From assembly GCA_014871385.1 (NCBI GenBank), contig CM026432.1, positions 1,691,194 to 1,755,193 of the forward strand: 64,000 bases of DNA. Reading direction: 5' to 3'. Of this stretch, positions 2,042 to 64,000 are shown piece after piece; the first letter of the stretch is position 1; each line of letters begins with the position of its first letter. This stretch comes from Ceratodon purpureus (Eukaryota > Streptophyta > Bryopsida > Pseudoditrichales > Ditrichaceae). The translations under genes and the position numbers were made by a program. The notes below the pieces were generated by a model. The model ran no database searches. It worked only from the letters and a program-made list of their open reading frames with translations, and was not told the DNA's origin.

Positions 2042-2186
2042 AGAAGAATCAAATTGTACATATGCTTTGATTGTGGTCCTATATTATTATCACCACATGT
2101 ATATTGATTTGTATAGAGATGTATTTTAAATATTATTTTGATTAGCTAATAGCAAGCGAAGCAAATGAGATACTATGTTACTTGAA

Positions 2187-2735
2187 GAGTTTGTCCCCTT
2201 TTTTGTTAACAATATGAAACCTGACATTTTCACTTTGGGTAGAGGCCAAAGTTTTCTACTCATGATCTGTTCTCACTCGTCAATCAACCAAGTCGTTGTT
2301 GCATTACTTATACTGAGCTAAGGTTTGCAGAATTACTCCAATACATATCATCAATCCTCTAAATGACAGTGGCCTGCCAAATGCTGTCATCAGACATGAA
2401 GCAATACTATCCCGATCTCTCATATGAAGCCGAGTAGTTGCAGCATCTGATGTTCCTAGCAATGCTCTGCTTAGACATCCGATCTCGGGATTGATAAAAG
2501 TGGACATGAGAACTGCGGATGTTGGCAATAACAACTCCCACCTCAAACCCACAGGGCAGGTTCAGAAAAATCCACCGTTTAAGAAAATCTTTCAAACTTG
2601 AATGTGATGAGCTTTCTGAATTTCACGTATTAATCTTACATCCAAGAACCTCGTCACAAGCCTCGTCAAAGGCCCGTCTACATTTACACCTGCACCTTTA
2701 GATGTCAATGCGAAGATAACTCGTTGTAGAAGGTG
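2187..2735 (-). repeat. Duplicated 3' end of the methyltransferase gene
   Basis: This stretch is a diverged direct copy of 7460-7955. It holds the last roughly 40 codons of the methyltransferase gene (stop at 2592-2594, ending AHHIQV) plus its 3' flank, including the shared text around TTTGTCCCCTTTTTTGTTAA. The copied reading frame is still open, which suggests a fairly young copy. It differs by scattered substitutions and an extra piece of about 30 bp near 2440-2475. At its upstream edge (2724-2738) the sequence flips: TTGTAGAAGGTGAC is the reverse complement, with one change, of 7961-7974 in the parent. A copy of about 35 bp from the same flank also lies at 5633-5668. Confidence 0.85.
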
Positions 2736-2749
2736 ACATTTACTGTTGC

Positions 2750-4246
2750 TCAAGGAATGGCATCCCATCGAAGCTCACACATAAAAACGCCTTCAATCGA
2801 CGGAGGAAGGTCACGCCATTGACCAATAGATATGTCGTAAACACTCGTAAGTTGCCGGACTCTCCCATTCTCAGTAACCTTATCCCAAGTCGAAAGGATG
2901 AACCCAGAGCTTGTAAAGATCTCCACTTCATGCTCAAGGTCACGCTGATTCGCATATGATCTAAAATCTAGACCCTTCAAGGTGACCTCATAGTCATTCA
3001 CCTTCCTTACATCTGACGTGATGCTATCCCAGGTGTACTCCGAGATTACCAACATGTCAGTCGAGTCACTTGGGGAATCCGGATTGACAAGAACGTGAAG
3101 CACAAACACACGATCCCTCATATTCGAATAGCATAATGCCGGAAGATATCGAAGAGAAGGGCAATACTCAGGTACAATCAGCTTTTTTGTTGCGCAATCA
3201 AAAAGTAGAAATTCAGTTCTCCCACCCGAGAGCGTGTTTCTATTTCCATAAACTAAGCCAGAGTCCATTGTGCTCCATGATCCACTTTTGGAGTCAAACA
3301 TAAATGCTCCAAAAGTTTGCCCAGTATCCTCACTTTTGAGCTTCTCACTATAAACCACAATTACTCTGAAACAAATGACATCACTGTCAGTCACCAGCTG
3401 TAGCAAAACGATTCTTTGAAAACCAAAGGGGATATCAGGAAGCTTTTTCCAATGGTTTGTTAAAGGATTACAGACAAAGGCGGACTTAAAACAAAAGTCA
3501 CCTTCCCACACAGGCACGAAACAAACCAAGCCCCCATCGCACGCGAACAACGAGTCCATGTACCCGTTCCCCTTGGGAAAATCCAACTCAATACCATGAC
3601 ACTCCTTAGATGTGACGTCAACGATTCTGGCACGAAACTTATCCAAATCACCATCCCACCCCAAGAAACCGAACAATTTGGGATTCGCCTCCGCAAAGAC
3701 CCCTTTGAAGCTGGACGAATCTGACATGGCGGACCACGCCTCGGAGCACTTCCGAAGCCCAATGATTCGAGGTATGGGTAGCCGTGCGAAGACCTGGACA
3801 ACCAAATCCTCCGTTAACTTGCTCCAGGTGTGCTTACACATTTTTGGATCATTCCATGTAGCTGTCTTTGTTACCCTTGTTTCTTTGCTGGAGCTTCCAC
3901 ATCCATTGCTTGGTTCTGCTTGAGTGGAGAGTCTATTCCGCTTCGACCTAGTGTTATCGTCCTCAGAAGCACGGTCCTCCGTTGAATTCATTTCTTGAAT
4001 AGCCACTTGCATTCTCTGTTTACCTGAAATTCCCTCGAGACCCGTTTCCAGAACATTCAACATGTCGCGCACAGTCTCCGTGACGAGGAGAAGGTCTGGC
4101 CTTTCGTCGATAAGCTCAGAGCTACTATCGGTTTTCAGCACTGTCACGATCCTCTCTATCTCCTTCAGCTCCGCAGAGCAGTCTTCCAATTTATGAAGCA
4201 CCTGATTGACCCTACATAATACGTCCGTGTAGCCTTTCTTTGCCAT
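2750..4246 (-). CDS. F-box protein, intronless
   Basis: A single open frame of 498 codons starts MAKKGYTDVL and ends ELRWDAIP. Residues about 1-90 are helical and charged. Residues about 90-135 are polar and low-complexity. An F-box follows at about 141-180 (WSKLTEDLVVQVFARLPIPR, with the WSAM tail). The rest has the kelch- or F-box-associated-domain look, with CNPLTNHWKKLP and YDISIGQWRDLP as typical strand/turn signatures. The family acts as the substrate-recognition subunit of SCF ubiquitin ligases. The target is unknown. Lack of introns is common in plant F-box genes. The stop codon lies only about 12 bp from the fold-back junction of the duplicated methyltransferase tail, so the 3' UTR is probably made from that copied sequence. 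Confidence 0.85.
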   Translation of the reverse strand: MAKKGYTDVLCRVNQVLHKLEDCSAELKEIERIVTVLKTDSSSELIDERPDLLLVTETVRDMLNVLETGLEGISGKQRMQVAIQEMNSTEDRASEDDNTRSKRNRLSTQAEPSNGCGSSSKETRVTKTATWNDPKMCKHTWSKLTEDLVVQVFARLPIPRIIGLRKCSEAWSAMSDSSSFKGVFAEANPKLFGFLGWDGDLDKFRARIVDVTSKECHGIELDFPKGNGYMDSLFACDGGLVCFVPVWEGDFCFKSAFVCNPLTNHWKKLPDIPFGFQRIVLLQLVTDSDVICFRVIVVYSEKLKSEDTGQTFGAFMFDSKSGSWSTMDSGLVYGNRNTLSGGRTEFLLFDCATKKLIVPEYCPSLRYLPALCYSNMRDRVFVLHVLVNPDSPSDSTDMLVISEYTWDSITSDVRKVNDYEVTLKGLDFRSYANQRDLEHEVEIFTSSGFILSTWDKVTENGRVRQLTSVYDISIGQWRDLPPSIEGVFMCELRWDAIP

Positions 4247-46265: not shown

Positions 46266-46876
46266 CAGCGACGCTATCTTATGAGCGGAGAACGGTGAGC
46301 AGTGAGCGGTGAGCCAAAAAAATTAAATCTTTGTATAAAAATTTGATTTTTTTTTTTTTTTTTGAATTTTTTTGAATTTTTTGAGAGCAATTACACAATG
46401 ATGAGCAATTTGGAACACTTCGTTGGAATATATGAATACAAAAAACGTAGACCCTATAACCGTGGAATGAATGAAATGTGCATGGTTCGAAGTAATATGT
46501 AATTGTTTAAGTCACATACAGAATATATATCCATTTTTTTTTTTGAAATTTTTTATTTAATTTTTGTGGTCTCGGATCCCAGACAAGAATATTTTCAAGG
46601 TATGAGGGAATATTCTTCCCTCAGATCTGAGGGAAGAATATTCCCAAAGTATGTCAAAATATTTGTTTCATACTTAATTTTACGACGACCAAAATTGAGA
46701 GGTGAACATTCAATAAATAAAAAAGTGACCTTTACTTTTGTTCCGCGAATTCCAAATCCACCACAAAGCCAAAACAAATCAATTCCGCTATTCATATAAT
46801 GTAGTTTTGAACTGTATTGGTCACTCCATATCACACTGTAACCATAAATGATAAGAAACTACTCAATCGGTTCAAC
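46266..46876 (+). repeat. Left terminal region, copy 1
   Basis: A diverged direct match to 52421-52955. Shared blocks include CACAATGATGAGCAATTTGG, CCTATAACCGTGGAATGAA, GTTTAAGTCACATACAGAAT and TCCGCTATTCATATAATGTA. It is the terminal and subterminal part of the large element. The GTGAGC-rich start is the kind of motif cluster that transposases bind. Confidence 0.8.
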
Positions 46877-46885
46877 ATAAGTTCT

Positions 46886-47030
46886 GCCCTTCCCCCTAAG
46901 GAGGGACTCGGCTCCGAGAGAAGGGGGGGGGGGGGGGGGAGGGGGGGGGGGTCTGCTTTTTATTTTCTTCAATATTGTAAGTCCTTGGTTTATTTTGTTT
47001 TAATTGATCAATTATAGTTCTCCATCCGGC
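46886..47030. repeat. Single satellite unit with a G run
   Basis: GTTCTGCCCTTCCCCCTAAG then GAGGGACTCGGCTCCGAGAG is a relative of the units in the array at 56449-57800, followed here by an expanded G tract (about 46923-46951). It lies between the left end and the copied methyltransferase segment, as in the parent gene order. Confidence 0.6.
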
Positions 47031-47046
47031 AGTAGCATACCGACGA

Positions 47047-47317
47047 CCTTCACTCCATTGATGTCTCAGGTACATCTTTTAGTTCCTCCCATTCCTTCGC
47101 AAACTGTTTACACCATTCTCTGCACCCAAGTGGAAGACAAACAGTGTGGAGTCACGAGTGGAGGTCATCAACGACAACATTAAAGGAATTTTGGAGTTAT
47201 TTAGTGATATCATACGCGGAGGCGAGCCTCTGATTTGGTCAAACATTCAAGAGTGGATTATGGCTCACCAGGGGAACAAGATTCGTCACAAGCAAGGAGA
47301 TGAGGATGATATTGTTG
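47047..47317 (+). repeat. Near-identical copy of a methyltransferase-gene segment
   Basis: These about 270 bases match 59011-59281 with only a handful of differences. They cover the end of one exon, a short intron and the exon encoding NIKGILELFSDIIRGGEPLI. The high identity, compared with the more diverged left ends, indicates a recent exchange or copy between the two halves of the composite region. Confidence 0.85.
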
Positions 47318-47629
47318 TCACCGCATTCGTGAATAAATTCAAAGTCACCGCATCTACTCTAGTAAAACAAAACACCTTCTAAGCACTACCTAATGAAAAC
47401 TACAAGATAGTACCAATAGACCTGATAAGATCATCTTCAGCAAGTTTAGGAATACTTAGAATGGGAGACAATACCTTTTAAAACCGTCTTGTAGGCCACT
47501 TTGTGACTCATTTTGAAGATCAAGCTAGCAGTTGGGTCTTCCTTCTCAGCTGTCCCATTAGCCTTTTTAGCCTTGGCTCCTTTAGCATGTAGATCATCTG
47601 CTCCGTTTTCCTTGTTCTCAGGGCCATGG

Positions 47630-47695
47630 GAGGCATGGGGGATAGGGGACATGGGAGGCATGGGGGGCATGGGAGGCATCGGAGGCATGGGCATC
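47630..47695. repeat. GGGAGGCATG minisatellite in the DRP2 fragment
   Basis: A run of 9-bp units (GGAGGCATG and variants) codes MPP repeats on the minus strand. Its expansion coincides with the place where the captured DRP2 reading changes frame, so slippage here may have broken the copy. Confidence 0.6.
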
Positions 47696-49344
47696 CTCAA
47701 GGATACATTCTTCCAAATTGATTACTCCTCGGAAATTCCTTTCTTCAGGCTTTTTAATATATGCAAGCTGCCAAGGCAAAGCAAGTATTAAAAATGGTAA
47801 TAAACAGCACCAAAGAATAAAAGATCTAGTGTGTCCAAAGTAATCTCAAGAAAATGTTCCAAACCTAGAAATAAATAAAATAACTGAGAATGACCATCTA
47901 GAAATGTCGTAATTTCGTACCTTGCATGTCTTTTCATTGAGAACAAACCAACGATTAGCTAGTCGTTCTCGTTGCTTAGTTTTAACAGATAACCTGCAGC
48001 ATTATCACCCACAATCTGCAAGGTCGATGGTGCATCCGTGCCTTCTTACTTCACATCCTCAGGCTGCGCTTTCATATCCTTCAACTTTCCTCCAACATTC
48101 GTGGAAGCTGTTGCCTGAGAGTCCAACCTCTTAACAATTTAGTTCGGCTGGACATCGATAGAGATTACGAAGTAACAATCGGTAACTAATTGCATCAACA
48201 ACCTCCTTAATTGCGGCAAAGTTAACCACTACAGTACATCGAAAAGCCTACAGTCTTGAAAAGGTGATATTGGGACATGACCAACTTCGGACCGAACCTT
48301 GCGTTGAACAAGTCTAATGAAGTGCTGAGGTGGGATAAATGCACTCTCTATGTCAACAAGAGCGACGACCATTTTCTTCGCCTCTACCATGTACTCATCC
48401 AACGCTGAAGTCGCAATAGCAACAATCTATAGTAGCATGACACGAAATAAGCATTGAATAATATTAGCCCAACCACATTAATCGAAATACTAGAGGATTT
48501 CTAATACCACAAATACAAGAAAAGAGCTGAGATTGCAATACATACCACTCTCCTAAGGGGCGGGTATCTTCGGGCCAACAGCAAAAACTATATCAACAAG
48601 AATACGGTGAACCTGATCATGCAATTTTTCTATTAGTTAGACTTCTGTAGTTAACGTTTCATGCTGTCATTTCCATTATTAAAAGGTACAGAATCTTCTA
48701 CACCATCATCCAGAACATTGCAATATAAAAGACAATAGCTTGATAGCAGAACTCAAAAAGCCAATTACCAACAAACGACAGGTAATAACAGAAAATCACA
48801 CCTCATCCACGCGGGCCTTTGACGGATCCTTGGCCAACTCAAGTGCCTTTCTTACTAGTGCTCTCAAACCCTTCTCTGGCAATAGAAAGAAGGGTTGATA
48901 ACCATCTGCTTCAAGAACGAGCTGCTGCAGAGAGTTGCAATAAATAGATTAGAGATAGAAGCCTTGCAGATACAGAAAGTACCAACAAATTCTAGGACCA
49001 CCGCCAAAATAGAACTTGGCTGTTTACATTAAATATAAAGATCAAACTAAGGTATAAGGGAATACCTTCTTAATGGTGCTGGTTTCAAACATCTGATCAA
49101 GCGGAAGACTCTTGATTCTTTTTGGTAATACACCTTCAAAGCTTGATACCACTTTCCAGCCTTGGCCTTGTAGAGGTATCACATACAAAAAGTCAGAATT
49201 ATAGGATAGACTTTAGTTAGGATAAGAAAAATGACCGTGCAATAACCACACAAACAACAGACTAAAATATCTAGGCTTAGTCAACGATGCCAAAAGAAGG
49301 TGCACCTAAGTTTCAACTTTGCATTGTATTGTCAGAGAAGTAGT

Positions 49345-50084
49345 GGGGGGAAGCACAATAAAGTGAACCACAAAAGTGCTTATCTTTTTTCCAATTTCAG
49401 CCCCTTCTGTAAAGACTAGAGAAAGTGGGATTTACATTATATTGATGCAAAATTAAGTTTGGGATACGGAAAGTAGACTTGATCTTCTTCAACTTCCCAA
49501 AGTTGCGAGAAAAGATATTGAGTTTACAATGGAAAACGGAGACGTCAAAGTCAGGCAAAGTGAATGGTCGTCATTTGGAAAAGTGAACATAACGGTTTAG
49601 GGTTTTGTCCAAAATCACTTTTAATTTCGCGGTGCACTCTATATGTTTAAGAAGTATTCTAAAATAGTCAATTAATATACTCATTGATTGGTTTAGGGTT
49701 CCAAAAGTACCGCAAGGATACTTTTTACGAGGGTCACTTCCACGGTACTTTTTGTGCGTTTTTTTTCACCGAACATTGTTTTTCAAATTGAAAAAAACAT
49801 CCTCTAAAGACAATAGATGGCTCCAAATGAAGAAATTAAGACTTTGGAAAAGTTCATTTTCATGAATTAGAACTAGTGGTCAAATTAAGTTTCAATTGAA
49901 GATATTCTTTTTATGAAGATGTATATAAGATACCTTATGACACCCTAGAAAGTGACTAAAATGCTCAAAAACTACACCAAAATGCTCAAAATCAGCTTTG
50001 AGCCTTAAAAAACAGCACACTTCATATTCACTTGTTGGTGGTCACATTTTGCACTTTGTGGTCCACTTTATTGTGCTCTCCCCC
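49345..50084 (+). mobile_element. GGGGG-ended element, third copy, in a DRP2 intron
   Basis: 740 bp, starting GGGGGGAAGCACAATAAAGT and ending GTCCACTTTATTGTGCTCTC then CCCC. It is flanked by the 4-bp duplication TAGT (49341-49344 and 50085-50088). It is colinear with the inner copy at 43624. It inserted into an intron of the captured DRP2 fragment, so it is younger than the capture or came along with the donor gene. Confidence 0.88.
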
Positions 50085-50323
50085 TAGTAAGACTCCACGA
50101 TTAGAGGTCCAAGACAGCCTAATTTGTTCTGAAAAAAAAAAGAAGATAAAAGATAACTAGTCAATAACACGAGTTCAATGCAGTAGGCATACCTCCCCAG
50201 TATTTATGTGTTTCAAAAAAGTATCCACAAACTCTCGACATAGCTCTAGAGCAATTGCACGTGTCCCTTCTGAGGTCTGTACCCTTTGTTCTCCTAATCT
50301 GCTCGATAATGGAGTTCCATCGT

Positions 50324-52420
50324 CTGCTCAATAATGGAGAACATGCACGTTAGATACTGAACCTAGAAACAATAATAATCGTTTAAAATCTTTTGCACTC
50401 AAACACATCTACATGACTTAACATTCCTCAGCGACTGTAGTTGAACGGTTGAACTCATGAGACAATACACATGAATTCGCAAGTAATTCTCCTAGTCTGG
50501 AATTACCCATGTAAAAGACACAAAATTGGCCATACTTTTCAACCAAAAGGCAGACCGACTCGCTATCAGGAAGACAAACCATGTTCAGTAAAGATCTGTT
50601 GTAAGACGTTGTTCGTCATGGTAAATTCTTGACTTAACCAGCCATGGCTGTCATTAGGATCATAAGAGGCATAACAGCCATCCCAGAAAAATTGTAGCCA
50701 AACATCGACGCTTCGTGGGTGGTGTCAGAGGTTGCTGGAGCTCAAGACCTCTTAACCAAATAGAGATCGCGACCAAGCTTCAACAGAACTCTGCAACGAG
50801 GTGCAGTGCAAGCATGAACACATATTTGCAACAGACGAGAGACTAAAATATTGACTACTACATCATGACATCTTGACATCTAGAGCCTTATCCTTCGCTT
50901 CCGCTTCCGCTTTTGCCATGGCTCTTGAAAGAACCAACACCATCACTGTTGAATGCTTCTTGCAGCAGCAATGTGGACACTCGCTATCCTGCAAATAAGT
51001 AGAATTTGGGTTAAAAATGAATCTGGAATACAAGAAACTAAAGATGGGACTCGAGAACACATAGCGTCTCACGATCCTATCGAGAAATTCTAATCCAGCC
51101 TCCAAATACAAGCTCAAATCGCTATCAAAGTATTTTCTTCCGCGGTATCAAAACTTGCAACAACCACAACTCGCCTCACATTCGTTACACCAATCTCAGA
51201 AATCAACCTCCCGACATTTCCAGCAAACAATCTCTCATCGTCCAATTTCCTGCTCCAAGCTGCCAATTCACAACCACGCCAAGTTACCAAAAAGCGACTA
51301 CTAAAAACGCGCACAGCAACTCCTTTGAAACCAAGAATTCGTCACAAACATAACAACTCCCCACTCAAACACCATACCCGCCAAAAAGACCAAATAGACA
51401 CATCCAATTCTACCATCAGCGCTGACCTCAACCAAACTAGAAAAATCCAAACCAGGAGCCAAATCAAGTACAGAAATCAACACAGAACAGGCCTCCAAAC
51501 AAGCAGAAGTATGCAGCATCCAACAGTAGAAGCCATCCGCGGCACCACAACCGGAATCAAAAAACTCACCGCAACAAGCGACAACAAGCTCCGAAAAGCT
51601 GCCAACGAGGTCTACCACAACGGCGCTTGAACGCAATTGATGAACATGAACTCGTGAACCGCAGCAACATTAACTATTGTCTCCGGAATCCGCACAACGA
51701 CTTGAAACCCCGGCAATCCTCTCGCTCCGAAGCAAACTAATACTTGTCGTAATGCGCTCGCCACAATGTATTCCGATGATCTATGTTGTTACGTACAAAA
51801 TGTTATTGTACTAAATCGGCTATTACGAGGACCAGCTAGCCCGAGAGAGTGCTCCCATGCATATTCACAAAAACTAGAATATATGTCAATCGACACCTAT
51901 TCCCGACCACTACTCTTGACAACTTATGCCCCATTTAGACATAGAGTTACAAACCACCTCCAGAACACCCTGGACCACTGTGCTCATTGGAAAAACCAGA
52001 AAGTGTTCACACTATGATTTGACGGAAGTGGACATTTTGGAATGGAGAGGTAAGTAGCAAGAGTGGCCTGGACTTGACCATTCCCACTCGCGTTGATTAC
52101 TACCTCTAGCGTAACCATGATGACACAAATCTTAAAGTTTGGATTTGGAGGTTTTGATGATTCTGAAGTGACAGCCCGAGGGTGGGCTCACGAGCAGCTC
52201 AGGGCAGCATTGGGCAGGAGTAAAAAATAAATTTCGAACCACCTCTCTCACCTACCCCCCTCATCATCATTCGCAACGTACTCTTTTGTTGTGTCTGCTT
52301 TGGTCTCATGTGCACTAGCTTCAATGCGCGCTCGCGTTCATGTCTGGTTAGAGGCATCGTGAATCGTAGTACTCAGTTTATTCTTGACATTTTCATTGCG
52401 GGCATCAAGTTCACGTTCAC
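50324..52420. other. Unassigned part of the composite element, possible second captured piece
   Basis: The stretch 50870-51640 is richer in GC than its surroundings and has long minus-strand open frames. 51314-51114 encodes WRGCELAAWSRKLDDERLFA, then ISEIGVTNVRRVVVVASFD, and 51117-50863 ends in AKAEAEAKDKALDVKMS. The pieces could be exons of an unidentified host gene carried with DRP2, but I cannot name a family and frames do not join simply. 50330-50870 and 51640-52420 show nothing recognisable. Confidence 0.3.
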
Positions 52421-52955
52421 TAAGTGGTGAGCGGTGAGCAGTAAGTAGTGAGCCCAACTAAATTCAGTTTTTTGTAAAAATTCGAATTTTTAGTTTATTT
52501 TTTGAATTTTTTTGAGAAGAATCACACAATGATGAGCAATTTGGGACACTTTGTTGGAATACATGAATACAAAAGAAGTAGATCCTATAACCGTGGAATG
52601 AACAAAATGTGCATGGTTTGGGGTAATATCTAGTTGTTTAAGTCACATACAGAATGGATATCCAAATTTTTTTTTAATTTTTTTATCTCATTTTTGTGGT
52701 CTTGGATGCGAGACAGGAATATTTCCAAAGTAAAGAAGAATATTTGTTTCCTAAACAGTTTTACCACGACAAAATTTGAGAGGTGAATATTAAATAAATA
52801 AATAAATAAATAACCTTTATTTATGTATAACGGATTCCAAATCCAACACAAAGCTAAAACAAATCAATTCCGCTATTCATATAATGTATTCTTGAATTGT
52901 ATTGGTCACTCAATATCACACTCTAACCATAAGAAACTACTCAAGCGGTTCAACA
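52421..52955 (+). repeat. Left terminal region, copy 2
   Basis: Diverged direct repeat of 46266-46876, beginning in the motif cluster TAAGTGGTGAGCGGTGAGCA then GTAAGTAGTGAGC. With the right end at 61039 it would bound an 8.6-kb element holding both element genes. Its outermost bases do not match the CAG/GCTATC end of copy 1, so its tip has been lost or changed. An AAAT microsatellite lies at 52795-52812. Confidence 0.7.
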
Positions 52956-53116
52956 ATTTTGGCTAGCTCCAAAACACACATAACTTCGTTGTAGCTGAAG
53001 CTAGGGGCGTGCATAAAAGTATTGAACTTGTAATCCATCTCACATAGATAGCGGAAGATACAGTATACATGCTTACACTACTTCCACTGGCCTCTTTTGC
53101 CAAGGGTTTCCGAAGT

Positions 53117-54090
53117 TCATTTTCGAGTCGTCAGATGTGTATCCGAATTGAGAGGAACGGGGAAATGATACCTTGGAAGCGGCATATTAGCAGCAACCTG
53201 GAACTGATGACGAGGTGATAGTGCTCCATGTTGTTGGAGATGGAAGCCAGCCTCTTCAAGAGGGAAAATCTCTTTCATGGTCAAGTTTTTGCCCCTTTTC
53301 ACAGGCCAAGTCTATGAGATAGATGGCCAATCAATCACAAACGACTTCTTTGTGCCCTTCACACATCTATTAATGTCATCGGCCCAAAACCAGAAGTTAG
53401 TAGAAATATGGCGATCGGTTCTGAACTCCTTCTTCAGCCCTACATAGGTAGGAGCATGCGTACCATGTGTACCTCGGCGCACTCGGGTATCGCACTTCTC
53501 ATTTGTATGAGGCTGCATTGCTTGGCATTTTCGGTTAGACTTGCCGGACAGTCTGACAATGTGCCTCTTTGACGGGTCGCTTGAATTGAAGTAGTGTGTT
53601 CAACACCCGAGTCAAGTTTCGAAAGGGTCTCCTCAATGCGTACTTTGGTGGACCTCCTACCATCACGGGGGATGGAATAATTCATTTTATCATAGCGATG
53701 CGAGTCATGACTTGAACCGGGCGGCAAATCTAACTTCCGTTTTGTAGATCCAAAACTCTCTACACCTTCTAAGCCTCCTTTCTTCGTTAATACATCCTCG
53801 GCTCCTGGGTAGGAATTAACTGCCTCAGCAATCAACTTGGGGTCACCAGAGCGTTGAGCATGGCGTAAACAAAGTTCTGCTCTGTCCGGACCTTTACCGC
53901 TCTTTCCTCCTTTCAGCCAAGAGCGATAACTTGTGATCTGCATGAATGCTCGAATGAGATCATTCACTGTAGCCTCGTACAACAGGTCATTGTATTTCCT
54001 GATTGTTCAAGCCATCTATTGTGGACGGTTTCCGCAAGGTTGCAGAAAGGCATGTCGGCTCTCTCGTCGAGTGTAAGATCCTGGAAAAGT
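53117..54090 (-). pseudogene. Broken minus-strand gene of the large element
   Basis: Consecutive coding pieces: about 54082-53985 (LDERADMPFCNLAETVHN), 53982-53522 (LIRAFMQITSYRSWLKGGKS, then GPDRAELCLRHAQRSGDPKL and FGSTKRKLDLPPGS), 53518-53312 (YVGLKKEFRTDRHISTNFWF, DDINRCVKGTKK) and 53302-53117 (EEAGFHLQQHGALSPRHQFQ). The text looks like the C-terminal half of a kind of uncharacterised, transposon-associated protein I associate with non-seed plants. This is from memory and not verifiable here. It is interrupted and has no N-terminal part. It runs away from the plus-strand gene that starts near 54.4 kb, so the two may once have shared a promoter. Confidence 0.5.
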
Positions 54091-54481
54091 AAAAAAGAAA
54101 ATGATGTCATTTTCATGATTATAGATGAAATTTAAGGTATAATAATAGTTGATGGAAGTTTGAAAGTTAGAAGTTGCATCGTGCCTCTTCATTTTATGTA
54201 CCAAAAGTGCCAAAAAGCCATCCAATCATTTAGGTGAGGGTTGATTATTAATTGTATCATGATTCAAATATAAGTTAATCGGATTTTTGGTTGTGCTCTA
54301 GATTTAGGATTTGCTGATTATGGGGTACTATTTATAATTTAAATTATCAATTTTGTTGTTGATGACTATAGAATTTGAGTGGCATGTGTGTAGGTGTTGG
54401 AATCGTCGTTGGGAGCTATTTTGTTGCAGCAGCTAACGTTGGCCTCGGAGCGACTAAAATCTTCACCGAAAGTAAGTGTTT

Positions 54482-54612
54482 TGGAATTCACGAACACTCA
54501 TTGGGATTTACGATTGCACATAGGAATTCACGAACGAATATAGGAATTCACAAACACTCATAGGTATTAACGAATGCACATAGGAACTCACGAACAAACA
54601 TAGAAACACACA
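54482..54612. repeat. Tandem repeat of about 24 bp, ATAGGAATTCACGAAC
   Basis: About five imperfect units of the form CATAGGAATTCACGAACACT occur in a row (variants GGGATTTACGATT and GGTATTAACGAAT). They lie in the likely first intron of the plus-strand element gene. Confidence 0.75.
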
Positions 54613-56448
54613 AAAGCAAAAGAGTTAAGGATTAGTTTTCACATGGACTGACTTATGCTTGCTATTGATTGCTTGTATGTCGAGTATCAATTCTCAAAAT
54701 TGATAAGTGTTCTCGGAATATAGGTTGAAGACGATTTCAATATCAAAAAATCCACATCGTTTACTGAGGAGGTCATTGAGCTTGCATTTGAAGAAATTGG
54801 ATTAGACGTGCTAATTTTTTATTCCGAGTCTGGACTTAACAGTTTGACATGGACACTTCATTTTAATTGGTGATCAAGAAGCTTCAATGCGGTTAGCTAA
54901 TTAGATTAACCAATTGCTGTCTGTGCTCTAAAAACATTGCATCCTCTAAATGTGATCAAATTGGTTCAAAATCTTGTTCAAGTAGTATTCCTCTAATGAA
55001 ATTTCAGTTTCATTTAGTGCTTTGATTCATGACAGGTTGTCAAAAACATGACTTCACCAATGATGGTTTCAGACGAGCCCGATTATATTGGCACCACGTA
55101 TGGTGTTAAGGATGTCGTACCCTAGATAGAGCACGAAGAAGGATCTTTGGCACAAATGGAGGAAAAGCTCCGCCGAGCAGTGAGGGAAAATAGCCACGCC
55201 GCCATCCAACAGGCATTGGACTATGAAGGCCTCAAAATTGGCGTGCCACTTTGTCGTATGATTCCCATGACAGACGTCATGCATCCTTTGAAGACTGGCA
55301 TTGCAAAGTTGAAGGCTAAATTTGCGAATGGTTACAGGCGGGCTTCAGCTTCTTTTTATTTGTCATTGAAGAGCTACTCAATGGAGGAGTCAGTTGTTAC
55401 AGACGAGCATCGTGTAAAGTGGTCACTTCTATGGCGTATGCAGGATGAACTATTTGAATCACGACTAAAGGAGGATTCTAGATTACAGAAGTTCTCAAAC
55501 CGTTTCTTCTACGTTTGGGATGGTAATCACCGCCATCTTGCATGGATGGACATTATCAATTCTCTTCATGGCGATGATCCTGCCTTTCATGTTTCTGTTC
55601 GTTCCATGATCATAAATGTCACACCCTAGAAGTTCTAGAACTGCAACATGTTGTTGCATGCCATGACGGACTGGAACAAGTAAGTTGTCTATTTCATAAT
55701 CTTTGATTATACCGTATTATTTCTATAGGGGGTTCTCTTCACACGAATTAAAAGCATTGATCTAAACTTGTGATGAATACAGGAAAAATCAAGTTGATCA
55801 TGTTGCAACACACTTCACACACGAGATTAAGCGTGTCCAGCAATTAGGCTTGCTGGACTTTGACCAACTCAAGGGCCTTCTTAATGAGAACGACCTCCAA
55901 GCTAGCATGATTGACTTTAAGAAGCTCAAGAGGAAGAAGTGGTACCACTTGACACAAGATGCGTTTGTCAGTTTTCTCTATGAGGCATTACATATTAACT
56001 ACAATTCTATGCTTTAATGTTTATCAATTTATTTCGTGAATTAAGTTTCTAATTATTATATTTATGAACACATCGTGACTCATATTTGCTGCGCAAGAAG
56101 AGGCAATTAGGAACTACAAGGACAGTCTCATTTCCAGTACTGGCAACAACAAAACGGGAAGCCCTGCCGAACTTGAAGAGGTTGTAGCAGAGGCAGTTGA
56201 AGTAAGAAGGACACAGTCATTGACACGTCTTTCTCGGTTCCTTGCAATTGCTGATCCCGCGAATGGTCCAAGCTTATTTAAAGAGATAAACTCCTATGTT
56301 TTCTGAATTTATGTATACTTGTAATCTCTATGTCATCTACATCATAAGGTTGACTCCACTAATACTTTACACGGAGTCATTGATGAGTTAACAACTAGTG
56401 AACTGCATGTAATCTGTAAGTTAACTTCGTCTACAGTTGATGCTCAAT

Positions 56449-57800
56449 TTGAGTTCTGCCACCTCCTAAAGGAGAGTCTCGGATCCGAGAAGGGAGGTGG
56501 AATTGTTTGTTTTTTCTCTTTTTTTTAAAAAAAATTTAAAATCTCAGTTTTAAATATTCAGTTTTTCAATTTTTTATAAAATTCTTGACCCCTTCAAGGA
56601 GGGTCTCAAATCTAAGAGGGCGGTAAGGGCAAATTTATTTTTTATTTTTTAATTAAATATTTATTTTATTTTTAAAATTTTTAAATCTCAGTTTTGAATA
56701 TTTTGTTTCTTAATTTTTTATAAAATTCTCGACCCCCGTAAGAAGGGTCTTGGATCCGAGAGAGGTGAAGGGACAATTTTTATTTTATCCGTTTTTTTAT
56801 TTTTTGAATTCTTAAAATCTCAGTTTTAAGTATTCAGTTTTTTAATCTTTCATAAAATTTTGGACCCCCTCAAAGTGGGTCTCAGATCCGAGAGAGGACT
56901 AGGGGCAAATTAATTTTTTTTATTTTTTAATTTTTTTTAGAATCTCAGTTTTAAATATTCAGTTTTTTAATTTTTTATAAAATTCTCAAGGAGAGTCTCG
57001 AAGGGATATTTAAGTAATTCTGGACAAAACGCCTAATTCTGGACTTTTTATCATTCCGTCGGCGGGCCGCCGACCAAAATAGCAAGTTTGAAAAAAACTT
57101 TTTTTTTTTTCAATTTTCGCTCAAAATAAGCTGTAAAAACCAGTTTTTGGCTTAAAAATCAATGTTTTGACTCTACTTCAGCCATAAATTCTACATTTGG
57201 ACATCATTATGTCTAATTTTTTGTGAATTTTGTGAAATATGCATTGTTTTATAGTATTTATTCTTTTTTTTTTTTGAAATTTTCAATGATTTTAAGTTAT
57301 TTACTACAAACATTTTGTCGGCGGATGAGCTGACTACTAATTGTGGACTTTAAAAAGTCCAGAATTACCTAAATATGCCATCTCGGATCCGAAAGGTGGG
57401 TGGGATTTTTTATTGTTTTTTCTCTTTTCTTTTTAAATTTCCTGTTTATTTTTTTTTGGTGAGGGGCCCTACTGGAGACCCTGGTTTTTAATTACGCATT
57501 GTCACTTGTGCATTGGTGCCTATTATGGGCACCTTTTATAATTTGCCAACATTCTGCACCCCCCCCCCCCCCCTTCCAGGAGGGTCTCGGATCCGAGAAG
57601 GAGGGTAAGGCATTTTCTTTTTTCTTTCTTTTTTGAATTTTTTATTTGTTTTTTTTAAAGGGCCCTTTTTGCGACTCTTTGTTGAATTACACAATGAATT
57701 GCTCATTGTTTAGTTGTAATAGATGGGCAGCTTTTAAAAAATTATCAAAGGTTCTGCCTCCCTCAAGGAGGGTCCCGGATCCGAGAGGGGGGTGGGCCGG
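56449..57800. repeat. Satellite-like array with TCTCGGATCCGAGA core, inside an intron
   Basis: At least seven units of about 125-150 bp, at about 56455, 56584, 56733, 56864, 56983, 57378, 57560 and 57750. Each has a GC-rich head (CCCCTCAAGGAGGGTCTCGG, then ATCCGAGAGGG) and an AT-rich tail (CTCAGTTTTAAATATTCAGT). The head can fold as a hairpin because of its palindromes. The array lies in one large intron of the ParB/methyltransferase-like gene. A C run lies at 57559-57573. One stray unit occurs at 46886. Confidence 0.8.
57006..57376. mobile_element. MITE of about 370 bp inside the satellite array
   Basis: Inverted ends ATATTTAAGTAATTCTGGAC on the left and, on the other strand, ATATTTAGGTAATTCTGGAC on the right. 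The left arm repeats TAATTCTGGAC internally. The interior holds a GC palindrome, GTCGGCGGGCCGCCGAC (about 57058-57074), and a related GTCGGCGGATGAGC near 57318. A clear target duplication is not visible. No coding capacity. Confidence 0.7.
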
Positions 57801-60615
57801 TGGCATGTTTTATATTTCTTTTAAATATCGTAATTTCTTGATTTATTTTGTTTTTTTTTTTTATCAACTTCATTTTAGTTGTTTTGTTATATTATTGGTT
57901 TACTTAAATTAAGTATTATAGATGTGTCTCATTTGTTGTAGGTTTTAGGCCATTTTGATGTTTACCAGTCCAAGCCCGAAATGACTCCTGAAAAAATTCA
58001 ACGAATCGCTATTGCCAAAGTGTCAACTAAGCACAAAGAGAAGTGGTTGAGGTTGTGGAACATGAGCAAATTGAGTCGGCAAGAATATAATTTCCCACCC
58101 ACGCTTGCCTCAGACAATAATCTTTGTGTCTGAATAAACCAAGCTGCCTTTTGGGCAGGGGTAAGTTTTTTTCTAGTCATCCATTTTCAATCCTTGTCGT
58201 TAACAGGGAGCTTGAGCCAACTTATGATTTCAATGGAATTGAGTGTTTTATGCCTTCTTATGTGGCAACTAGAGGATGAAGCAGTCGCTCGATTCAATGA
58301 GATAGTGGAAGATGATGGTGTTGTAATTCAAACGGAGGGCCTAAACGTACTGTTTAACGATATTGGAGCTTGGATTGCTTCGCATTCGATTACGTTGGGG
58401 AGAAAGGCCTTTAAGGATTTCTTCCCTAAGGTTGGAACGTTCACCAAGAAGTTGCCATTCCTTGATCAAGCAAGAGCTGAAAGTGCCATGAAGCGGGCAA
58501 TTTTAAGGTACTTCTGTAGAGAGCTTGTAGTTAAGGATGAAATTGCCAGAAACGACATCACTATCCGCTTCAATAAATGGGTGGATGTTTTGAGCAGTGA
58601 ATGTATTTTCCCTGAGTACCGGAGAAAACTGTTTTGGAGGCCTCATTTATTACAGTGTCCGTGGTATCCTGAGATGAAGGTGAACGACGGATGTCCAAGG
58701 GAGGAAAGGAATGTGAAAGCGAATTGTGAGCAACAGATGAAACAGAATGTGTATGAGCATATTGTCCTCCCCGATTCCCCTACTTCGGATGCTGGTGGTC
58801 AAGATGAACTTTCGGAGAAACAAAGGCAGAAGGAGGCCGCAAAGAGGACAAGGATGGAGGCGTGATAGAAGGTCAAGGAAGACAAAAAGAAGGAAAAGGA
58901 GGAGGAGCTCAATAAAAAGAAGGGGGTCTCGGCCCGCAACAAGGAATTGGCTAAGTTGATGGCAAAGGAGGGTCTGGAGAAGCTTCTTTCTCTTCCTGGA
59001 AATTCTCCATCCTTCACTCCATTGATGTCTCAGGTACATCTTTCAGTTCCTCCCATTCCTTCGCAAACTGTTTACACCATTCTCTGCACCCAAGTGGAAG
59101 ACAAACAATGTGGAGTCACGAGTGGAGGTCATCAACGACAACATTAAAGGAATTTTGGAGTTATTTAGTGATATCATACGCGGAGGCGAGCCTCTGATTT
59201 GGTCAAACATTCAAGAGTGGATTAAGGCTCACCAGGGGAACAAGATTCGTCACAAGCAAGGAGATGAGGAAGATACGGTTGTGGATCTCATTATATTTGA
59301 TGTGCCAGAGGACTTACTAGTTCTAGGCCTTAGCCTTTCTGGTGAAATTCCTCCCTGGAATCACCACCCCAAAAGTACCTGTAGCGGGTGTGGAGGGGAG
59401 GTTCAAGGCAGACTAGATTCAGCACTTTATGGATTTTGCTTCTCAGTTCCTTCAGGATAATGGAGCGGTCATTGTCTTCTACCGCGATATAAAGTTTATT
59501 TCAAACGAGCGTCTGTCTTGGGCAAATTGGGCGGGCTTTCAGGAGGAGAGAAGGTGGTTTGCAATCAATGGGCTTCCATTGACTATATCAAATAAACCTT
59601 CCTTGAATCATAAGTGCTTTATGGTGAAGTGTTTTGTCTGGAAAGAAAACTCTAGCGAAGGACAAGCAGTATCTAGTTTTGTTTTCTATTACAGGCCAGA
59701 ACAAGCTGCTAAGGGCATTACGTTGTCAAATGATGGTCATGTCAACAACTTCATCAGTGTGGATTCTCTTACGCTTGATTCAGTAAATCGCAAACCGTTT
59801 AGAGGAGCTCGGGAGAAGTCTGTCAATTTTCTCGAGGCTCTTGTGGACCTTTGCACCGTGGAGAATGATATTGTCATGGGCCTTACTGCATCCACATGTA
59901 TATTCTATATTCTCTTTCTTAGAATTAGCTGGTTTTATTTGTTTCCAATCTTTCTACGCTTTCTAATTCTTTATGCAATTTTCAGGTGCATCCATTTGTG
60001 CTTGTAAAAGCATCAACCGACATGTCATGGCTTTTGAAGATGACAATGTCTTGTACAAGGAGGTACTACTGCCGCTCATTCCACAACCCGATGAAGTCCA
60101 ATCTGACCAGGCCACTTTACCTCCTCCAAAGAATAAGCGCCCCTTGAAAGATGACGATGAACTTGAGAAGAATACAGCCCCCAAGTGCTCTTGTAAGTAA
60201 GTCTATACTATCAGTTTCTGGTGTTTACATCTACTTTGTATTTTTGAAATAGTATTTTCTAAGTACCTCTTCTTTCTCTTGCTTTAGATGGGGGCCGAAA
60301 ACGTTGAAGTCTCAAGGAATTGTGTCAAGGTATTTAAGCAAGATAAAAAGCCCAATCCGTTCTTTGGAGCTTCCTTACCATGTAGAGAACCTTGCGCATG
60401 CAATGGCGGCAGCTCCTTCACTACCATCTTCTCCGAAGCATCGTAGACCTAATCGTGATGTAGAGCAGTATTTTGAGCTATTTGCAGAAGTAGATAATGT
60501 GGTACTATCTGATGAGAGTGATTCTGAGCACATGAGCATTGAGTCAACTAGTAATGACAATGACTCCGAGCATGGGTACATTGAGATTTCTAGCGATGAC
60601 AGTTTTTGTACTTGA

Positions 60616-61039
60616 TTTATCCTGTTATTAAAAAGTGTGTGACTTTTTGATACATTAATCTATTTCCGTTTCTTATACTTCATTCTTATTTTGATACACT
60701 TGAAATATGACTCTTCATGTCCTAATTTTGAATTCATGACATTAGGCTTTGTTTATAATTTAGGTGTCGTAAGAAACCGTATTCAACAATGACTTATAAC
60801 TTCAACGATTCAATTCTAATATAATAATTATAAAACCAGACTTAAACGACCTACACGGAAATAAGGTATGTGCATCATATCTAATGGTAATATTTGTGTA
60901 TTATCTTCAAAACGTACTATTTAAAAAACCATAGTCATAGGGCTCCATTCTTGATTTAAAGCACATTTTAATGGAAAAAAGTTCCAAAATTATTGAAATT
61001 TAGCGCTCGCCGCTCACCGCTCATAAGATAGCATTCCTG
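60616..61039 (+). repeat. Right terminal region of the large element
   Basis: AT-rich sequence after the end of the ParB/methyltransferase-like gene. It finishes in GCGCTCGCCGCTCACCGCTC then ATAAGATAGC, the inverted partner of the left end at 46273. Confidence 0.75.
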
Positions 61040-61772: not shown

Positions 61773-62880
61773 CGAAGAACTCGGAGGGGGTTTTAACCCA
61801 AAAAAATAATTGAAGAAAAATCATAGTCGTCGTTATAGTTGTAGTAGTCGTAGTAGTGATTGTCGTCGTCATGTCCTTTGGTATTATTGGTCGTATATGG
61901 TTGTGAAAAGAAAAAAGAGATTGAAGTTGGAAACTTGAAAAGTTGTTTGAAAGGTTATATAGATTATATAAATGGCTATTGCAAAAGTTATTGCAAAAGT
62001 TATTTCAAACAATATTTAAAAATCAATTAATATATTTTAAAAACAAAAGCAAAGGCCTCTCAACCTCATTCATTTTTTGTGTAAATTTATTTTATTACAT
62101 ATTTTACATGACCACTTTTCATTTTTTATATTCAAATTAAAAAAGTATGACTACTCAATGCGGCAATGCCACGCACAACCATCGTCAGAAGTCATAATCT
62201 ATCATGACTTTTGGTACAAACTCCATATTTTTAATTTTAATATAAATTAAAATATTTTACAACGAAGTGTCTATTGCGGCATTCGCCAAAGAAGTGTGAA
62301 GTCTTATACTTAGAAAGTAAATAAATAAATGTATATTTAGATGTATGTTTAGGAAGCTGCTAGATTGACAACGATCACAACCATGACCATGCCAACGCAC
62401 ACACCTTCCAATTTCCTTTGTTATTTTCTTAGATAAAAACTCTCTCCGAGTACCTCGTCAAGGAAATTACAATAAAATTAAAAACAAAGTTATTTGTTTT
62501 TTGAATGATTGTTTTTTGAATTTAAAAAAAAAATAAAATTCAAAACTAACAAGTAAGAAATGAAAGGTATTCATACAAAAATAAAATAAAATAAAATTTA
62601 CAAAAAAAATGAATTAAATTGTCAATGAGCTCTGCTTTTGTTTTAAAATATGTCAATTTATTTTTAAATATTTTTTAAAATAACTTTTGCAATAACCTTT
62701 TGATAGCCATCTGTATAATCCATACAACATTTAAACAACCTTTCAAGTTTTCAACTCCAACTTCAATCTCTTCATTCTTTTTACAACCATATAGGTTTTG
62801 CTTTTGTTTTTAAAATATGTCAATTGATTTTTAAATATTTTTTATAATGACTTTTGCAATAACCTTTTGAATAGCATATA
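61773..62880. repeat. Fold-back (inverted-repeat) element
   Basis: The arm at about 61890-62055 (CGTATATGGTTGTGAAAAGA, GATTGAAGTTGGAAACTTGA, AAACAAAAGCAAAGG) is repeated inverted at 62640-62880, where its parts occur twice: TTGCTTTTGTTTTTAAAATA, TTGCAATAACCTTTTGA and CAACTTCAATCTCTTCATTC. The arms can pair into a long hairpin. No coding capacity and no clear target duplication. Confidence 0.65.
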
Positions 62881-63254
62881 AAATGAAAAAAAAAATAAAA
62901 AATAAAAAATTACACAAAAAATGAATAAAGTTGAGCTTTCATTTTTATTATCCATTTATATCCAATTTGAACTATATTATCAATTTATATCCTTGAATCA
63001 ACATTGTTTATATCTATTTATAAATTTACTCTTATATAATTATAGCATGCAAAATTTTGGACCTACCATTTATACCCTTCTCACAAGCACAATTTGAGTC
63101 CAAGGGCCAGTCGGCACGTTTTTTCAAGCACACGGTCCAAACACCACATTTAGCATCAAAAGCACATTCAGCAATAAATTGAACACAAGATCGCAAAGCG
63201 CATGAATAGAAGAGTACCAGATAATATTTCCAAGGCCGAGACAAAATCATAATT

Positions 63255-63482
63255 CTATCAATAAGGAACTTGGAGAGGGTTTCAAACCGGAAAAATATTG
63301 AAGAAAAATCATAGTAATAGTAGAGGTTGTAGTGACCGTCGTCGTCATGTCCTTTGGTATTATGAAAAGAAAGCAGAGATTGAAGTGGGAATTGGAAACT
63401 TGAAAGGTTGTTTGAAAGGTTATATAGATTATATAGATGGCCATTCAAAAGATTATTGCAAAAGTTGTTTCAAACAATATTC
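63255..63482 (+). repeat. Second direct copy of the fold-back arm
   Basis: It matches 61773-62018 in the same orientation (TTGAAGAAAAATCATAGT, GTCGTCGTCATGTCCTTTGG, GGTTGTTTGAAAGGTTATAT), with small deletions. It shows the arm is mobile or was duplicated locally over about 1.5 kb. Confidence 0.75.
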
Positions 63483-64000
63483 ACTAGAGGAAAATAGTGA
63501 CGTTGTTTAACGCGGGTTTTAATGCGGTTTAACGCAGTTTAACATGTAGTATTTTTTTGACGCAAAAATGCCAAAAAGGTCACGGACATCGCTTTGGTTT
63601 AACATGCTGCATTAAAACATGTTAAACGAGTTAACACGTTTTAACGTGTTGCGTCAATAGTGACACAAATACAAATTATGGAAGTTACCTAGGGTGAGTA
63701 ACTTCGAGAGTAAGTTTTTTGCCACGTGAGCATTTCCCTCTTTTGTGCATTCCACATTGGATGTGACATGAACATTTCCCAATGTTTTTTAATTCCACGT
63801 CATATCTGACGTAGGCAAGGCTCCGTTGTCCTGATGGATGAAAAATTTGCTGATATGGCATGGAAATCTGACGTGTCATTTAGGTTTCCAATGGCCAAGA
63901 TTGTGACACGTGGAGTGATCGTGGATTGAGGGTATATTTTCGCATTGAATTTGGGATTTGTGTTATTTTGTGTTTATGTAAACGCAGTGTGACGTGTTTT
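63483..64000. other. Right edge, TTTAACGC-rich sequence
   Basis: 63500-63660 is full of TTTAACGCG, TTTAACATG and GTTAACACG words in both orientations, an imperfect inverted cluster of unknown nature. After it no gene is seen up to the window edge. Confidence 0.4.

Follow-up and report, generated by a model that had tools for sequence, protein, structure and literature searches.

The 64,000-nucleotide window analyzed here (C12:1691194-1755193 of the genome of the moss Ceratodon purpureus, 362.5 Mb in 151 contigs, one of 110.5 Mb) contains one copy, now decayed, of a large DNA transposon bounded by terminal inverted repeats. Beside the remains of a candidate transposase gene, this element carries an accessory gene in which a DGNHR (ParB/sulfiredoxin-like) domain is joined to an N6/N4-type methyltransferase-like domain in one multi-exon gene. 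A new feature described here is a conserved palindrome that studs the noncoding DNA of the element and may be the target of the accessory protein. All copy counts given below are lower bounds for a large repeat family, and the window's own genome is the only plant genome compared.

The accessory gene lies on the forward strand. Exon 1 (positions 55048 to 55679, its ends placed by eye from the copies L046 and L011) encodes the domain with the PLCRM motif and the ParB/sulfiredoxin-like motif WDGNHRH and has stops inside. It is followed by exons 2 (55783 to 55989), 3 (56079 to 56284), and 4 (57943 to 58163, with one in-frame stop), whose ends were inferred by eye. Exon 5 (58268 to 59898), which is frameshifted, encodes a middle region, a basic stretch, and the methyltransferase-like domain from motif IV (DVPED) to motif I (DIVMGLTAST). 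The remainder of motif I and the acidic strand (ASICACKSINRHVMAFEDD) come from exon 6 (59986 to 60200), and an acidic C-terminal tail with the stop codon comes from exon 7 (60289 to 60618). The strings named in the original prediction, which was made from the letters of the window, are all present: IPMTDVMHP and WDGNHRHLAW in the open reading frame (ORF) 55126-55629, DLIIFDVPEDLL in ORF 59026-59460, ENDIVMGLTAST in ORF 59417-60007 (its last G is supplied only by the splice), and ACKSINRHVMAFEDD in ORF 59967-60200. The copy is broken, as had been proposed, with in-frame stops in exons 1 and 4 and a frameshift in exon 5. The motifs had also been called unusual; they are less odd than they looked, because better copies have DIVMDL in place of DIVMGL and DVPEDLPVPG in place of DVPEDLLVLG, but motif IV remains DVPE or DVPQ.

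A genome search with exon 1 of the window scored 150 of 1827 candidates, the window included, all at E values of 0.001 or less, and 127 of these 150 matches are open copies without a stop inside the match; such numbers in the same genome put the named motifs far beyond chance. Exon 1 is found upstream of exon 5 on the same strand in copies L011, L013, L017, L021, and L022. The exon order is the same in L046, a relative from a cyanobacterial bin, and in a third, divergent family (L036 together with L052, here called the DQPY family), where PLCRM and WDGNHR precede a methyltransferase domain whose motifs are DQPY and DLAASTGAS. Since the DGNHR-methyltransferase order recurs across families, the alternative of two unrelated genes fails, and the predicted single gene with introns carrying both pieces is supported.

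The exon 5 domain is well supported by profile comparisons as a relative of the N6/N4-type methyltransferases. A whole-genome search for PF01555 yields 146 matches at E values of up to 0.1 (150 of 773 candidates scored), 33 of them over the curated cut-off of 26.7 bits. At least two of these 33 belong to the window's family, C1:5958254 (27.3 bits, profile positions 29 to 190) and C5:15306119 (26.7 bits, positions 29 to 187), and both lie 3.4 to 3.6 kb downstream of exon 1 starts, inside exon 5 ORFs. All four of a further set of PF01555 matches (L035 to L038) show methyltransferase-like motifs, and the one that was followed upstream has a DGNHR exon; the DQPY-family exon matches the profile with 33.4 bits (E value of 5.8e-8). 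The hhalign comparison of the moss proteins (19 of 21 loci gave a row, 9 of which were kept after the redundancy filter) with six plasmid and phage enzymes, all matching PF01555, gives a probability of 98.9% and a score of 127.7, motifs IV, X, and I being collinear. With the three rows of other families removed, these values are 97.8% and 94.7. The pairwise E values of hhalign are uncalibrated, so that shuffles serve as the test: none of 60 controls (one reversal and 59 column permutations) reaches 127.7, the maximum being 21.8. The reference enzymes were taken from tblastn matches, five through the methyltransferase exons and one through the DGNHR exon, a selection that favors them; L043, whose match spans two ORFs, was left out. 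Less favorable to this assignment are the single hmmscan runs with exon 5 of L011, L013, L017, L021, L022, and L046, which find PF01555 in only two of the six, both times below the cut-off (15.8 bits in L017 and 10.6 bits in L013). The Pfam scan of the window's own exons gives no meaningful match and no PF01555. In NCBIfam, the DQPY-family exon matches CcrM-type models at an E value of 5e-5, far below their cut-offs, and the other family proteins match nothing relevant. PHROGs searches produce weak matches only (best E value of 0.021), A1 and A2 have no relevant match in PDB profile searches, and 24 pattern matches in viral contigs include no relative. The tblastn matches of the methyltransferase exons to phages and plasmids are weak; among those listed, the best E value is 5e-4 and most are annotated methylases.

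Motif IV precedes motif I, in the order of the N6_N4 enzymes. The canonical motif IV pattern, (D/N/S)PP(Y/F/W), is not found in the window's clade: the compared open copies of this clade and L046 have DVPE or DVPQ, without an aromatic residue. Other families have DIPE (L037), DQPY (L036), or DQPF (L038). In the open copies with the second exon found, motif I reads D-x-x-A/T-S-T-G-A-S followed by an acidic pair, with S in place of the first glycine of the canonical loop. DPPY and SPPY are catalytic motifs according to the cited part of a study in which replacement of Ser and Tyr of SPPY by Ala abolished activity (PMC8885841). Because of this result and the missing aromatic residue, methyl transfer in the DVPE clade appears doubtful, whereas in the DQPY family it is plausible. 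Of the predicted amino-DNA-methyltransferase, the kinship to the N6/N4 type thus stands (score of 127.7), but a working enzyme in the window's clade is not supported by its DVPE or DVPQ motif.

Two further groups have methyltransferase-like motifs. L036 with L052, L035, and L038 form a further family with window-like methyltransferase exons, whose DQPY makes it a candidate active enzyme. L037 represents a third family, with the motifs DIPENLPVP and DWNAGTGAS; many PF01555 matches of 20 to 23 bits at profile positions 163 to 193 may belong to it.

In the N-terminal domain, WDGNHR is invariant in all 9 rows compared, as are PLCRM and AW, and a motif of the G-x-H/R-R type with its conserved arginine is present. 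The assignment of this domain to the ParB/sulfiredoxin fold, which rests on the DGNHR motif, is likely but unproven, and homology is not statistically secured. ParB_N (PF02195) has no match in the whole genome at E values of up to 10, while 11 of 14 control genomes do give matches. The hhalign comparison with five ParB-type proteins of the cyanobacterial bin, in which only the DGNHR segment is aligned, reaches a probability of 2.3% (1 of 60 shuffles attains its score) or, with the DQPY family added, 2.9% (0 of 60), and with subsets or single ParB-type proteins less than 1%. The best tblastn match of the DGNHR exon in phages and plasmids has an E value of 2 or worse, and AlphaFold2 models of single window pieces, with predicted local distance difference test scores of 41.9 and 43.8, are unusable for fold assignment. 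The missing ParB_N match and the low hhalign probabilities, together with a 42-column insert, make it quite possible that the N-terminal domain is a novel one, outside the ParB/sulfiredoxin group, with a convergent DGNHR motif. The strand-DGxHR-helix order and the invariant arginine argue for kinship instead, as does the post hoc removal of the insert, after which the probability rises to 14.9% and the score, 24.6, exceeds all 60 shuffles (maximum 15.4). Significant profile scores for both domains had been proposed as the check; they were obtained for PF01555, in two copies, but not for ParB_N anywhere in the genome.

The element in the window extends beyond the predicted interval, from 46266 to 61039. 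The sequence CAG..GCTATCTTATGAGCGG at its left end (terminal inverted repeat at 46266 to 46320, with GTGAGC repeats) is matched in inverse orientation by CTCATAAGATAGCATTCCTG at the 61039 end, where the right repeat (60989 to 61039) ends with GCATTCCTG. At up to 2 mismatches, the terminal repeat has 204 forward and 223 reverse matches in the genome, 427 in all, versus 0 for the reversed control, which bears out the claim of a mobile element. Stretches of 9.9 kb around 20 chosen copies were compared, and one copy on C2 was completed. It measures 19.7 kb between inverted ends, with 173 of 205 aligned end bases identical, so that relatives do lie between the same terminal repeats, as had been anticipated. 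Better copies have a divergent gene pair between the inverted repeats, the accessory gene and, on the opposite strand, an extended coding region that contains WIMFDH, MADNAGANW, and NLAETVHNRW and a C-terminal C-x-C..C-x-H. This candidate transposase we take, by eye, to be a Mutator-like transposase with a SWIM-type finger and an acidic-triad-like pattern. Mutator-like elements (MULEs) have long terminal inverted repeats and target-site duplications of 8 to 11 bp. The former are present here, as the ends of the C2 copy show; no target-site duplication is seen at two end pairs (the C2 copy and the window), and the candidate transposase matches no MULE transposase or other Pfam family at E values of up to 10 except Cohesin at 0.13. 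At a third end pair (L054 and L055, G000:C1:23784890-23804330), 19.4 kb apart, the flanks are mutual reverse complements, which points to an inverted duplication or an assembly effect and no target-site duplication.

Among 2584 candidates, 82 transposase ORFs were scored, and 73 of them have a divergent exon 1 at a gap of 2.5 to 4.5 kb; of the 9 without such an exon, 4 have one within 30 kb. For this pairing, 109 of the 150 scored exons were used, after the weaker ones had been dropped. In the window, a decayed 3' part of the candidate transposase gene is found at 52937 to 54131 on the minus strand, with NLAETVHNRW at 54.0 kb and CKHVYCIFRYLC at 53.0 kb; its 5' part was not found in the window. 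The copies fall into subfamilies A (L009 to L012 and the window), A2 (L013 and L014), B (L015 to L017, L026 to L028, L033, and L034), C (L018 to L021, L024, and L025), and D (L022 and L023).

The palindrome TCTCGGATCCGAGA occurs in the window at 10 sites with up to 2 mismatches versus 0.13 expected, and 9 of the 10 are inside the element, which makes up 23% of the window. One site, at 46570 to 46583, has 1 mismatch, and those at 46906 and 52700 have 2 each. Six more, at 56477, 56748, 56880, 57381, 57585, and 57773, are located in the part of the long intron 3 between 56475 and 57790 (forward strand), partly in 132-nt tandem units. Its central 10-mer, TCGGATCCGA, is found in 22 of 22 stretches with 212 copies, the next palindromic 10-mer with at least 4 G/C having 7; these stretches are not independent, since L031 and L017 belong to one element and many others are nearly identical copies. 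Without a search key or G/C rule, and with N runs and words made only of A and T excluded, TCGGATCCGA outnumbers every other palindromic 10-mer in 19 of 24 stretches, shares first place in 3, and is exceeded in 2. Exact TCTCGGATCCGAGA 14-mers number 1160 in the genome versus 0 for the reversed pattern, and 3 in the cyanobacterial bin, all on the L046 contig. Judged from the first 50 of the 1160, all on C1, they keep to the elements: a known element feature is found no more than 20 kb from 40 of the 50 (random expectation: mean 2.2, at most 9 in 2000 trials), and likewise from 15 of the 18 clusters that they form, although 16 of the 50 sites are in one element.

None of the 222 CGGATCCG sites in 24 stretches falls in coding sequence (sequence matched by the family's proteins is 39% of their length). 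The sites recur in repeat units of about 86, 96, 126, 149 to 161, or 393 nt, depending on the subfamily. Their arms are subfamily specific and symmetric, and C, D, and L046 have several sites that form perfect palindromes of 26 bp; in the analyses of arms, the search itself sets the inner bases. In 154 distinct GGATCC contexts, complementarity of the flanks at 11 of 14 offsets exceeds that of all 500 shuffles, which ignore relatedness. When up to 3 mismatches are allowed anywhere (236 matches versus 7 for the reversed pattern), 97 distinct contexts have 34 mismatches at the 10 inner positions, compared with 58 at the 4 outer ones.

Several observations weigh against a role of the palindrome as the target of the accessory protein. 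Its center, TCGGATCCGA, is conserved but not invariant; 10 of the 50 listed C1 sites are away from any listed element feature; and L026, L033, and L034 have one core site each. The DQPY-family locus, with the same protein architecture, has no CGGATCCG palindrome in 6.7 kb. Over the arm positions of 68 distinct sites, sense-strand G-U pairs outnumber A-C pairs by 35 to 11, a hint of RNA hairpin pairing. Moreover, the palindromes may instead be read by the transposase or by a host protein.

Among the copies, purifying selection acts on the methyltransferase-like exon. The ratio of nonsynonymous to synonymous substitution rates (dN/dS) in the methyltransferase domain is 0.19 to 0.20 in the unsaturated cross-lineage pairs L033/L017, L017/L034 (dS 0.31), and L011/L013 (dS 0.59), and in the middle region it is 0.16 to 0.17 (L033/L017 and L017/L034, dS about 0.6). 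The closest pair, L033/L034, has dN/dS of 0.29 and 0.49 at dS of about 0.05. The exon 1 pairs of this set are all saturated; a separate comparison of exon 1 in L017 and L027 gives a dN of 0.09 and a dS of 0.61. In five pairs of A and B copies, the transposase has a dS of 0.08 to 0.11 over 228 to 360 codons (a 76-codon piece gave 0.18), whereas exon 1 has a dS of 2.1 or more and exon 5, in the three pairs measured, 1.8 or more. Genes 3 kb apart therefore have very different histories. This contrast is limited to A versus B, as the transposase is also saturated against C and between C and D. Divergence in L017/L027 and in L011/L013 is higher for exon 1 than for exon 5. From these distances we infer an exchange of accessory genes, and perhaps of the first domain alone, between element backbones.

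In VANDAL21 and its accessory gene VANC, the cited part of the description reports a conserved transposase, a fast-changing accessory gene, and motif arrays in introns and upstream regions (PMC5735166). The similar anatomy of the moss element leads to the proposal, to which we would give a little less than an even chance, that the accessory protein acts on its own elements through the palindromes, as a module of self-recognition and perhaps of anti-silencing. The protein, probably a dimer, would recognize the palindromes through its N-terminal part. Its methyltransferase-fold part, for which S-adenosylmethionine binding is plausible, would then set or protect the chromatin or methylation state of the elements, and these would thereby escape host silencing, as VANC serves VANDAL. 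A more far-reaching version appears rather unlikely: a plant DNA transposon would have co-opted a prokaryote-type ParB-methyltransferase module and evolved parS-like arrays, with the altered fold turned into an anti-silencing machine and the recognition domain swapped. The likeness of the palindromes to parS is our assumption.

It is unlikely that the candidate transposase or a host factor reads the palindromes and that the accessory protein has another role, e.g., in excision or repair, though sites near the ends and outside the accessory gene would fit this alternative. The arms differ between A copies (L009 to L012) and the B copies L026 and L028 despite near-identical transposases (dS 0.09 to 0.11), and it is the accessory proteins that differ between these two sets; this argument is partial, since L017 and L027 share the inner 14-mer of A. 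Slightly less probable still is a role of the palindromes as hairpins in the intron RNA, or their spread by the family as no more than a satellite. The tandem units in the long intron, the symmetric arms, the G-U excess, and the imperfect conservation of the center all suit this explanation. They are offset by sites outside the intron, by a palindrome common to units of quite different lengths (about 86 to 393 nt), and by inner 10 positions that vary far less than the outer 4, an outcome that the 3-mismatch limit favors. RNA folding of intron 3, without shuffles at its length, is uninformative.

A working amino-methyltransferase that methylates the palindrome, with its GGATCC/GATC center, for protection or transposition seems improbable. 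The fold relation and motif order of N6/N4 enzymes, the D, P, and Y of motif IV retained in the DQPY family, and the GATC within the palindrome center agree with such an activity. However, DVPE or DVPQ, with no aromatic residue, stands at motif IV in L046 and in the open copies of the window's clade, and at the one locus read, the DQPY family has no palindrome despite its better motif.

The relative L046 was the only one among 65 pattern matches in an alignment-based scan of prokaryote genomes. It lies on a 4.7-kb contig labeled Synechococcales MAG81, with 45% identity over residues 21 to 204, and its positions 1 to 4181 belong to the transposon family. It has the first six exons of the accessory gene, with GT-AG introns at corresponding positions (by eye), the motifs DVPEDLPVP and DITASTG|ASIKAC, and three palindromes. 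The palindrome is present upstream of the gene. A second contig of this bin (AVDCRST_MAG81), G001:C80:2043-3542, carries a transposase ORF 72% identical to the query. At least these two contigs of the bin carry the transposon family, and both are probably eukaryotic contamination. A host gene family or bacterial contamination in place of a transposon gene, which the occurrence of a relative in a cyanobacterial bin might suggest, is scarcely credible, given the introns and palindromes of that relative, the transposase on the second contig, and a gene that is multicopy, with inverted repeats and a neighboring transposase, in the moss genome. The same bin contains L050 (484-1815), where ParB_N is near the Pfam cut-off of 26.3 (28.2 and 25.1 bits in two scans). 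It was considered as a ParB-methyltransferase fusion and rejected: only ParB_N is supported, the likeness of its C terminus to a degenerate methyltransferase being by eye only.

The left half of the window's element is composite, as its subterminal sequence is duplicated: positions 52425 to 52960 match about 46290 to 46900. A partial second copy of the methyltransferase gene, at 47025 to 47320 on the plus strand, matches about 59010 to 59300 by eye. Between 47320 and 50350, minus-strand exon-like pieces, which we take to resemble a dynamin-related protein 2 gene, are possibly a captured host gene fragment; Pfam gives Dynamin_M at an E value of only 0.096 in one of the five pieces, and another piece has no PDB match. 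Just right of the element, at 61800 to 63500, AT-rich inverted and direct repeats have arms of up to 79 nt that are 89% complementary.

Only a few proteins encoded by transposons are known to counteract or rewrite epigenetic silencing by the host. If the proposal of self-recognition and counter-silencing holds, a eukaryotic transposon would have made a sequence-specific epigenetic tool out of a bacterial-type modification module, with a conserved methyltransferase fold and an altered active site. The abundance of the moss family, its many open copies, a plant with tractable genetics, and a candidate DNA target would make this model testable. No ParB-methyltransferase gene of a plant transposon is described in the part of the literature matches covered (titles and abstract openings, with subscription journals and plant repeat libraries outside the scope).

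Among known systems, DIRS elements carry Dam-like N6-adenine methyltransferases, and LINE, DIRS, and Gypsy elements carry cytosine methyltransferases, as summarized in the cited part of that work (PMC5890265). Like the moss element, these are eukaryotic mobile elements with a DNA methyltransferase domain, but they are retrotransposons, whereas the moss domain, of PF01555 type, belongs to a DNA transposon. Bdelloid rotifers (N4CMT) and Marchantia (its 4mC enzyme) have eukaryotic amino-methyltransferases of bacterial origin; in the sections cited here, these enzymes are described as host genes, N4CMT has a canonical SPPY, and a DGNHR domain is unmentioned (PMC8885841). Bce_0392 of Bacillus cereus, according to the cited excerpt, has a ParB-like domain fused to an adenine methylase (PMC5512222). 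The moss gene differs from it in its insert, middle region, introns, altered motif IV, and eukaryotic transposon setting, and the sequence-level link of the DGNHR domain to it is not secured. In anatomy, the parallel is with the VANDAL elements of Arabidopsis, which are Mutator-like, and their anti-silencing proteins VANC, as far as the cited part of that study goes (PMC5735166). The proteins are unrelated, the domains of VANC being DUF1985 and DUF287, neither of which has a Pfam match in the moss exons scanned, and those of the moss protein being the DGNHR and methyltransferase-like domains. The motifs differ as well: that of VANDAL21 is YAGTATTAC or YAGTATTAT, and that of the moss element is a palindrome around TCGGATCCGA. 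Both systems are nonetheless DNA transposons with an accessory protein encoded beside a more conserved transposase, and in both, motifs that serve (VANDAL) or may serve (moss) for recognition stand in tandem repeats of introns and upstream regions and change between related elements. The contrast in dS between transposase and exon 1 in the A-B pairs resembles the higher conservation of VANA relative to VANC (PMC5735166).

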